The translations under genes were made by a program, and so were the position numbers. A stretch of 13,644 nucleotides of DNA, taken from positions 1 to 13,644 of the forward strand of contig JAUWXV010000083.1 in NCBI GenBank assembly GCA_030616165.1, given 5' to 3'. Source of the DNA: a bacterium (GTDB lineage: Bacteria > SM23-31 > JAUVVT01). The notes under the pieces were generated by a model that saw only the letters and a program-made list of their open reading frames with translations, was not told the DNA's origin and did not search any database. This document shows, piece by piece, positions 6,339 to 8,893 of this stretch. The first letter of the stretch is position 1. Every line of letters starts with the position of its first letter.

Positions 6339-7982
6339 TCATCTATTAATTATATAATTATCTTTATCTAATATAACAGATACAGGCCTCTCCATATATA
6401 ATAAAGTAAACTTCATCTGTTTCTTTGCAAGCATGATCTTTCTATATTCAAAACTTTCTTCAAAATTTATAACAAACACAATCCCTAAAATAAAATCTCT
6501 TTTACAAAATTGCTCGATATTAAATAATATTTTATATCCACCATCAGGCATAGCCTCAATTTTATAATCAAATTTAATACGTGGAATATCAGAATTTTCA
6601 AACCACTGATTAAAAAACCATCTCAATGCAGAACCATAATATTTTTCTGCAGTTTTTCGGAAATAATCTTCATTGAAATTATTACTAACTGAATGTTCAG
6701 CAAGTTCCTTTATCATACCTTTAAATTTCACATTTCCTACATAAAAAGAGAGCATCCTTAAAACAAAAGGAACCTTCTGTTTAACAATTATTTCTTTATC
6801 TATAAAATTCAAATCCTTAGAAATTACGGAGAGTTCTTTTTCAAAATTCAATACATTTTTTTCATAAATATTCATATACCTCATCTCTTCATCATATCCA
6901 TACATGGTTTCGATAGCATAAATCGAAAAATATCCACAGAGACCTTCCTCAAGCCAATCAGTTGAACAGTTTTCCCACCAGAAGTGAGCAATTTTATTGC
7001 ACATATGGTAAAAAATTATCCTGTATTCTTTCCAATCCCTCAATTCGCCTTTAATCTCGTTCTCTGGAAAAACAAAAAACGACGGGTAATAAGTATAGAA
7101 TCGCCCGGTGCGAGGCAAAAATACAGCAGTAATCTTCTTTTCTTTTTTAACTCTCACAAATCTGTCAAAATAAAATCCAAGTATCCACTCAATCTCAATA
7201 AACATCCTGCTCATCTCAAGAGAAGGGAGTTTCTTGTAATAAACTGTTATATATGTTCCATCACTGTATTTTTTTTCATTTTTTTTCATTCCCGTAAGAG
7301 CAAGGAAAACAATCTGGGATACCGGTTTATTAAGTTGTAATGTGTAATAGTCTATTTTATCTTTTCTTATTTTTCTTATAATACTTGCTGGAGATACGAT
7401 AGAATACTTTCTATCAATTCCAATATTTAGAAGGTATCTGAAATTTGTCCTACTATTTACAAAAGGATACCAGTTAAAATTTGCTCCAAACTCTAAAAAA
7501 TCCGGTGATTTTCTTTTTTCTTCGCTTTCAATCTTTCCAATATAATTTATCTTTATTTTTATTTCTCTCTTACTCCTCATTTCTAATTCAGAGAAAGGAT
7601 AATAAAACTTGTAAATTAATGACTTATTACTCTTTCCTGATTCTCTTTCGACTTCCCACTTTTTAACGACACTACCATCACATTCAATTTCTTTTACCAC
7701 TATATTTCTATCAAGAGAAAAATATATAGAATCTTGAATATTCTGACTTGTAGTTAAAAGATTAATTGAAGCCCCAGCTGAAAATGACCTATCTTGAACA
7801 TTTATAACCAAATCAATATTATATGATAAGACATTCATGAGAGGCTTTTGGAATATTTCTTGATTTATATCTCCAAAATCTGAAGAGTATTTCTCATAAA
7901 GTTCAACTTCCTGGGTATAATATAATTCCCGGGAAAAAAGAAATGTTATTATTAGAACTGCAATGAAAAATTTAAGATTCAT
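6339..7982 (-). CDS. M1 aminopeptidase-like exported protein, predicted catalytically inactive
   Basis: A 547-residue protein with an N-terminal hydrophobic export signal (about 3-17) and M1-family (gluzincin) architecture: a beta-rich N-terminal domain (about 45-230, with IDLVINVQDRSFSAGASI and a YPFVNSRTNFRYLLNI block), a thermolysin-like central domain (about 240-400), a helical part with YYGSALRWFFNQWF (448-461), and a C-terminal beta domain. At the active site, where active members read HExxHxWW, the sequence is N329-K330-I-A-H333-F-W-W. The first zinc histidine and the catalytic glutamate are replaced, while H333, the WW pair and the third-ligand glutamate in WLEEG (E346) remain. A GAMEN-type motif is also not recognisable near residues 285-310. 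It is therefore probably a pseudoenzyme with a binding or structural role outside the cytoplasm. No good ribosome-binding site precedes the ATG. Confidence 0.8.
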   Translation of the reverse strand: MNLKFFIAVLIITFLFSRELYYTQEVELYEKYSSDFGDINQEIFQKPLMNVLSYNIDLVINVQDRSFSAGASINLLTTSQNIQDSIYFSLDRNIVVKEIECDGSVVKKWEVERESGKSNKSLIYKFYYPFSELEMRSKREIKIKINYIGKIESEEKRKSPDFLEFGANFNWYPFVNSRTNFRYLLNIGIDRKYSIVSPASIIRKIRKDKIDYYTLQLNKPVSQIVFLALTGMKKNEKKYSDGTYITVYYKKLPSLEMSRMFIEIEWILGFYFDRFVRVKKEKKITAVFLPRTGRFYTYYPSFFVFPENEIKGELRDWKEYRIIFYHMCNKIAHFWWENCSTDWLEEGLCGYFSIYAIETMYGYDEEMRYMNIYEKNVLNFEKELSVISKDLNFIDKEIIVKQKVPFVLRMLSFYVGNVKFKGMIKELAEHSVSNNFNEDYFRKTAEKYYGSALRWFFNQWFENSDIPRIKFDYKIEAMPDGGYKILFNIEQFCKRDFILGIVFVINFEESFEYRKIMLAKKQMKFTLLYMERPVSVILDKDNYIINR

Positions 7983-8281: not shown

Positions 8282-8893
8282 ATGAAATTTTTTCGTATAA
8301 TATCAATTTTAATAATCATACCACTTTTTTTCTGTTCTTTATTCAGAAAAGAAAAAGGATTGTCATATTTTGAGTTTGAGATGAATGGAATAACTTACCA
8401 AAAATTGTCAGTCAATTCACCACCAAGCGGTCCCCCTTACAATCAATTATTTGGAAAAGATTTTATAGTAACCGATATCAAGCAGGATCAGAATATTGAT
8501 GAAGTTTTAGTTGGAGACCAAAATAAGATTAATGAATACCTGAAAATCTATAAATACGGAATTCAAAAGGCTCTCGAAAAAGGAAAACTTAAAGAAAAAG
8601 AAGATTCCTTTTCTTACATTTATTCCACACCTTTGAAATATTTTAAGTTAACTACATTTTTCCATGCACGTGAAAATCCACACAATGAATTCACTTACTT
8701 AGAAATATTTGCTAATAGAAGAATAGTTAAAGCAATAGACAGAAATGCTGACGGAATACTTGATAACATCACTTCTGGATTTTATGATATGAAAAAACTT
8801 CAGAATGAATATTCCGAATTCATAAAAAATGGAGTAACCAAAAATAAAATTGCTTTTAAAGATGGTATGTATTTGGTTATACCTCAAGATTGA
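8282..8893 (+). CDS. Unrecognised exported protein with a Ca-loop-like motif
   Basis: A 203-residue product I cannot assign to a family. It starts with a lysine/arginine pair and a strongly hydrophobic stretch (5-20, ISILIIIPLFFCSLF), so it is exported or membrane-anchored. C18 is preceded by LFF rather than a standard lipobox, so lipidation is doubtful. The rest is soluble, mixed charged and aromatic. Near the C-terminus the stretch IDRNADGILD (152-161) has the DxNxDGxxD spacing (D153, N155, D157, G158, D161) of calcium-binding loops in dockerin-like or thrombospondin-type-3-like repeats, but there is only one copy. The start codon has only a weak purine run (AAGAAAG) upstream. It diverges from the M1-like exported protein; a shared function is possible but untested. 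Codon pattern and length support a real gene. Confidence 0.7.
   Translation: MKFFRIISILIIIPLFFCSLFRKEKGLSYFEFEMNGITYQKLSVNSPPSGPPYNQLFGKDFIVTDIKQDQNIDEVLVGDQNKINEYLKIYKYGIQKALEKGKLKEKEDSFSYIYSTPLKYFKLTTFFHARENPHNEFTYLEIFANRRIVKAIDRNADGILDNITSGFYDMKKLQNEYSEFIKNGVTKNKIAFKDGMYLVIPQD

Follow-up and report, generated by a model that had tools for sequence, protein, structure and literature searches.

The window, a stretch of 13,644 nucleotides, encodes on its minus strand an exported pseudopeptidase of the M1 fold, as predicted from its N-terminus, profile homology and a structural model. The catalytic residues have been lost while the gene has stayed under purifying selection. We interpret the protein as a non-catalytic member of the M1 architecture that is kept for binding; our preferred reading, offered with reserve, is that an extracytoplasmic polypeptide is caught by its end in the cleft and is not cut.

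The altered active site

Two relatives form a clade with the window protein. L007 (L035, JAUVVT010000002.1, genome G001) is an ortholog from another genus of the same family, independently assembled and 66% identical; it reads NKIAHYWW...WLKEGL with identical AAT AAA codons. L008 (QNDJ01000236.1, genome G003; label, candidate division KSB1) comes from another family of the same class and is 28% identical. It reads YQIAQYWW...WLKRGL, with all four zinc-site residues gone, including the second His and the third-ligand Glu, which is Arg; the contig ends before its N-terminus is complete. Only these three clade members, one incomplete, are known. The features discussed below are as follows.

6339–7982, minus strand: exported pseudopeptidase of the M1 fold, 547 amino acids and stop (intact open reading frame, profile–profile match, modelled M1 fold)
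7929–7982, minus strand: residues 1–18, hydrophobic export signal or membrane anchor (hydropathy; also in L007)
7491–7493, minus strand: E164 of domain I, candidate Glu for anchoring the substrate N-terminus (E-x8-P spacing)
7083–7097, minus strand: YTYYP, residues 296–300, approximate place of the GAMEN exopeptidase motif (alignments)
6984–6998, minus strand: NKIAH, residues 329–333, replacing HExxH (codons, alignment to HExxH, identical in L007)
6945–6947, minus strand: E346, equivalent of the third zinc ligand (alignments; also in L007, Arg in L008)
6780–6782, minus strand: K401, at the catalytic Tyr position of the YxKG segment (alignments; Arg in L007, Gly in L008)
8282–8893, plus strand: predicted lipoprotein of 203 amino acids, divergently transcribed, family-specific, candidate partner (same divergent arrangement in G001)

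The reading frame begins with ATG and runs for 547 codons with no internal stop, and residues 1–18 are hydrophobic, in agreement with the first-pass annotation, which had described an intact frame with an N-terminal export signal. Codons 329–333 are AAT AAA ATT GCT CAC, placing N329 at 6996–6998, K330 at 6993–6995 and H333 at 6984–6986. The substitution of NKIAH for HExxH claimed in that annotation holds in coordinates and codons, as does its remark that AAT and AAA each lie one base from CAT and GAA. W335, W336 and W343-L344-E345-E346-G347 are retained; in HExxH-bearing relatives (WINET, WLNES) the residue aligned with E346 is the third zinc ligand. The distal His, the Trp pair and the third-ligand Glu reported earlier are H333, W335 W336 and E346, with the linker between the second His and the Glu corrected to 12 residues, as against the classical 18. 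Judging by the alignments, this short linker is a subfamily trait, found also in relatives that keep HExxH, and is separate from the damage to the active site.

The loss extends further than was first claimed. All three proteins lack the catalytic Tyr of the YxKG segment (the register at K401 is set by the invariant K403), and the alignments place no GAMEN or GxMEN motif in any of them. Along the HExxH column, NK is shared by L007 and more is lost in L008, and the earlier reading of the protein as a pseudo-peptidase is strengthened. In M1 enzymes, a Glu of domain I anchors the N-terminus of the substrate. E164, the candidate for this role, is also present in L007 and four short-linker relatives with HExxH, and is Asn in L008. 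L008 keeps the fold-packing residues W335, W336, W343, G347 and Y351 while losing every catalytic residue as well as E164 and E346. Within residues 26–50, considered as a conserved N-terminal recognition segment, no local stretch exceeds the conservation of shuffled sequences.

The window protein has three His in its whole sequence. The three clade members have no His or Cys position in common, so a replacement zinc site common to the clade is ruled out. Within the window's family, C328, H333, C339, E346 and C349 could in principle constitute a new metal or thiol centre, making the protein a neofunctionalised enzyme or a metal carrier. L007 shares all three Cys, which lie within 22 residues of the old site, but L008 keeps none of them, a Cys preceding the first His position is also present in HExxH-bearing M1 proteins (e.g., L011 and L076), and Cys residues in an exported protein may merely form a disulfide; we regard such a centre as improbable. 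Residual peptidase activity, with zinc weakly bound by H333, E346 and a third residue, is very improbable. It would rely on the one His and the third-ligand Glu still present in the window's family, whereas the general base Glu has become Lys, the first His Asn and the catalytic Tyr Lys or Arg, and L008 is without even the two remaining ligands.

Homology, fold and descent

The window protein scores 18.5 bits against Pfam PF01433 (Peptidase_M1), and the other two clade members 18.1 and 20.0 bits, all below the gathering score of 27.7; homology to M1 is thus clear only by profile. Aligned to the HExxH-keeping relatives, the profile of the three-member clade gives an hhalign probability of 99.7% (E 6.7e-27) and sets NKIAH on HExxH and WLEEG on WINET/WLNES. 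A sequence search of the PDB returned nothing useful. A single-sequence search of the species-genome collection found no close relatives, and a profile search of the same collection found only the two known genomes and otherwise ordinary M1 proteins.

The structure modelling suggested in the first-pass annotation supports the assignment. An AlphaFold model from an alignment including distant M1 proteins (pLDDT 81, pTM 0.76) predicts a β-rich domain (about 49–238), a mostly helical domain (about 254–462) and a β domain (468–538). Its matches among known structures are M1 aminopeptidases (Z up to 25.8, with an rmsd of 4.8 over 478 residues), although the large helical domain IV is missing from the model. 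PepN, IRAP, ERAP1 and puromycin-sensitive aminopeptidase match the modelled domains I–III with Z of 23–26 over about 475 residues; the zinc site, GAMEN, the catalytic Tyr and helical domain IV of these enzymes are all missing from the window protein. The model cannot count as separate evidence for the homology, since AlphaFold fails (pLDDT 35) when given the three clade members alone. A gluzincin aminopeptidase of the M1 type is recognised by HExxH with a downstream Glu; the window protein and L007 have NKIAH...E346 and L008 has YQIAQ...R. Filing the window protein as an M1 peptidase would be wrong: tests for the zinc site, the catalytic Tyr and GAMEN, and for a score above the curated cut-off, all came out negative. 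Homology and domains I–III (the latter from the model with M1 proteins in its alignment) place it in the M1 fold superfamily as a non-peptidase homologue.

In a tree built with the active-site columns left out, the window protein, L007 and L008 form one clade (support 100/98). Its sister group consists of short-linker M1 peptidase-like proteins, L058 from the same phylum and L009, L015 and L076 from other genomes (joint support 100/97), which are characterised by HExxHxWW, a short linker and W[IL]NE. The window protein resembles them in the IAHFWW helix, the 12-residue linker and the domain I Glu, and so falls within the short-linker subfamily. In these proteins HExxH, the third-ligand Glu and the Tyr are intact, whereas the present clade has lost them (E346 being retained in the window protein and L007).

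Read from the sequences, loss of the zinc and catalytic residues spans a clade that covers two families of one small phylum, represented by six species in the genome set examined. Within the phylum the stages are HE..H..E, then NK..H..E, then YQ..Q..R. G003 holds both forms, the intact-motif L058 and the pseudo form L008. No intact-motif cousin was found in the window's genome (G000) or in G001, which is 70% complete; in both, the intact-motif profile matches the pseudo form best. The simplest reading would be that the gene was duplicated before the families split and that one copy then lost catalysis; loss on two separate occasions within the pseudo clade is possible.

At least four more M1 homologs, each of about 1100 amino acids and with HExxH unrecognisable, are encoded in the window's genome:

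L126:2613-5906 (G000:C202), large M1 homolog
L127:6340-9648 (G000:C265), large M1 homolog
L067 (G000:C24), large M1 homolog
L070 (G000:C228), large M1 homolog

Others occur elsewhere in the phylum (L024, L061, L062 and L115). Their N-terminal half is permease-like, their M1 region has no HExxH, and they carry a Golvesin_C domain; in the two that were scanned, Golvesin_C was above the cut-off in both and an ABC-2 permease match was below the cut-off in one. The large homologs form a separate clade from the pseudo-peptidase (100/99), so the zinc site has been lost at least twice in the phylum. Neither they nor the window protein has a recognisable zinc site, but the large proteins are fused to membrane regions and HExxH is wholly erased; their loss is independent of that in the window protein and more complete. 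Two other M1 homologs of the genome, C40 and C218, keep HExxH. A transglutaminase-core protein (L002:187-2625, G000:C302) has a C-terminal M1 part, comprising the end of the thermolysin-like domain and the β domain, with the zinc-site region missing.

Maintenance of the gene and its neighbourhood

Compared with L007, the window gene has dN 0.214 and dS about 1.40 (Nei–Gojobori), a ratio of about 0.15 that is rough because dS is close to saturation. In the same comparison, the dN/dS pairs of neighbouring genes are 0.202/1.50 for the glycosyltransferase, 0.229/2.29 for the DUF2723 protein and 0.292/1.21 for the divergent lipoprotein. The pseudo-peptidase gene evolves like its ordinary neighbours, unlike a decaying gene, and is under purifying selection. 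The first-pass annotation had proposed a gene maintained rather than decayed, and these values, the intact frame and the 8 gap positions relative to the ortholog bear this out.

A sequencing error or a decaying pseudogene is hardly credible. In favour of it, both substitutions are single-base changes from the canonical codons, and the genome, in 343 contigs, looks like a metagenome assembly. Against this, NKIAH is encoded by the same codons in an independent assembly of another genus, there are no stops or frameshifts, the dN/dS ratio is low and L008, in a third genome, has lost more; error and recent decay are excluded on the strength of the shared codons and the further losses. The 66% protein identity excludes that both assemblies come from one organism. 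An alternative conserved His/Glu site, sequencing error and random decay had been named at the outset as the ways in which the annotation could fail; each was checked and none was found.

The genes for a DUF2723 protein, a glycosyltransferase, a CoA-binding protein, the lipoprotein and the pseudo-peptidase follow in this order in both genera, the window differing by an MgtC gene inserted between the DUF2723 and glycosyltransferase genes. An order kept between two genera of a single family is weak evidence that the genes act together. The counterpart of the lipoprotein in G001 is 58% identical and likewise divergent to the pseudo-peptidase gene; none was found in the other four genomes of the phylum. 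The lipoprotein has no Pfam or NCBIfam match above the cut-off and bears a DRNADG stretch resembling a calcium-binding loop. Divergently transcribed beside the pseudo-peptidase gene in both genera, it is the best candidate for a partner of the pseudo-peptidase. No known RNA families were found in the window and no terminator-like sites around the pseudo-peptidase gene. Beyond the pseudo-peptidase in G001 lie three genes that by eye resemble GFO/IDH/MocA oxidoreductases (L032:14524-18667, G001:C305); in the window, FmdB-type zinc-ribbon and DUF2284 genes take their place. Near L008, a Peptidase_MA_2-like protein just under the Pfam cut-off (L033:3122-4237, G003:C236) has an apparently intact gluzincin motif, HEITH...FDEGFATY.

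Possible function and known systems

The protein retains the M1 architecture of saddle domain, thermolysin-like domain and C-terminal β domain, and after export it should be unable to hold a catalytic zinc in the usual manner or to cut peptides. Binding would then be the reason for its maintenance. In the mechanism we propose, the old substrate cleft with E164 and E346 would take hold of the polypeptide end and leave it uncleaved; K330 perhaps replaces the charge of the zinc, which is a guess. Outside the cytoplasm the protein might serve as a receptor, a chaperone or an assembly factor, possibly together with the neighbouring lipoprotein. Capture of a polypeptide end is our first choice because the domain I Glu and the third-ligand Glu remain in the window's family. 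It cannot be a clade-wide role in the same form, since L008 is without both.

As both Glu are replaced in L008, a purely structural role is a strong but less likely rival. The cleft would be unused and the M1 domains would serve through their outer surfaces as a scaffold in an envelope complex, like TAF2 in TFIID, which is non-catalytic. Such a role fits the persistence of the fold-packing residues in L008, where the catalytic residues and both Glu are gone, and the presence in the window's genome of four larger homologs whose zinc site is erased and whose N-terminal halves are permease-like. Among the fold matches is TAF2, as TFIID chain B of 7edx; it shares an M1-like fold used as a scaffold, but is a eukaryotic, nuclear chain of 963 residues in a large complex, unlike the window protein. 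The retention of E164 and E346 in the window's family argues against an unused cleft, as does, though not significantly, a conservation of 0.76 between the HExxH helix and the third ligand, slightly above the average of 0.66.

The M1 pseudopeptidases known to us are all eukaryotic. In a 2024 review of metallopeptidase pseudoenzymes, yeast Tma108 is the sole M1 pseudopeptidase; it has the M1 fold and is proposed to bind polypeptide N-termini in its substrate pocket, an enzymatic role not having been shown (PMC11266112). Tma108 is cytosolic and ribosome-associated and keeps HExxH, whereas the window protein is predicted to be exported and its zinc site is gone. The open-licence literature yielded no description of an M1 pseudopeptidase exported by a bacterium, which is weak evidence of novelty. 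M1 pseudopeptidases as such are already known, and the window protein is a new bacterial, exported one.

Homology-based annotation would wrongly name at least five of the genome's M1 homologs aminopeptidases. The small phylum, with its intact-motif cousin, offers a natural series in which to ask which features of the M1 cleft survive the loss of catalysis.
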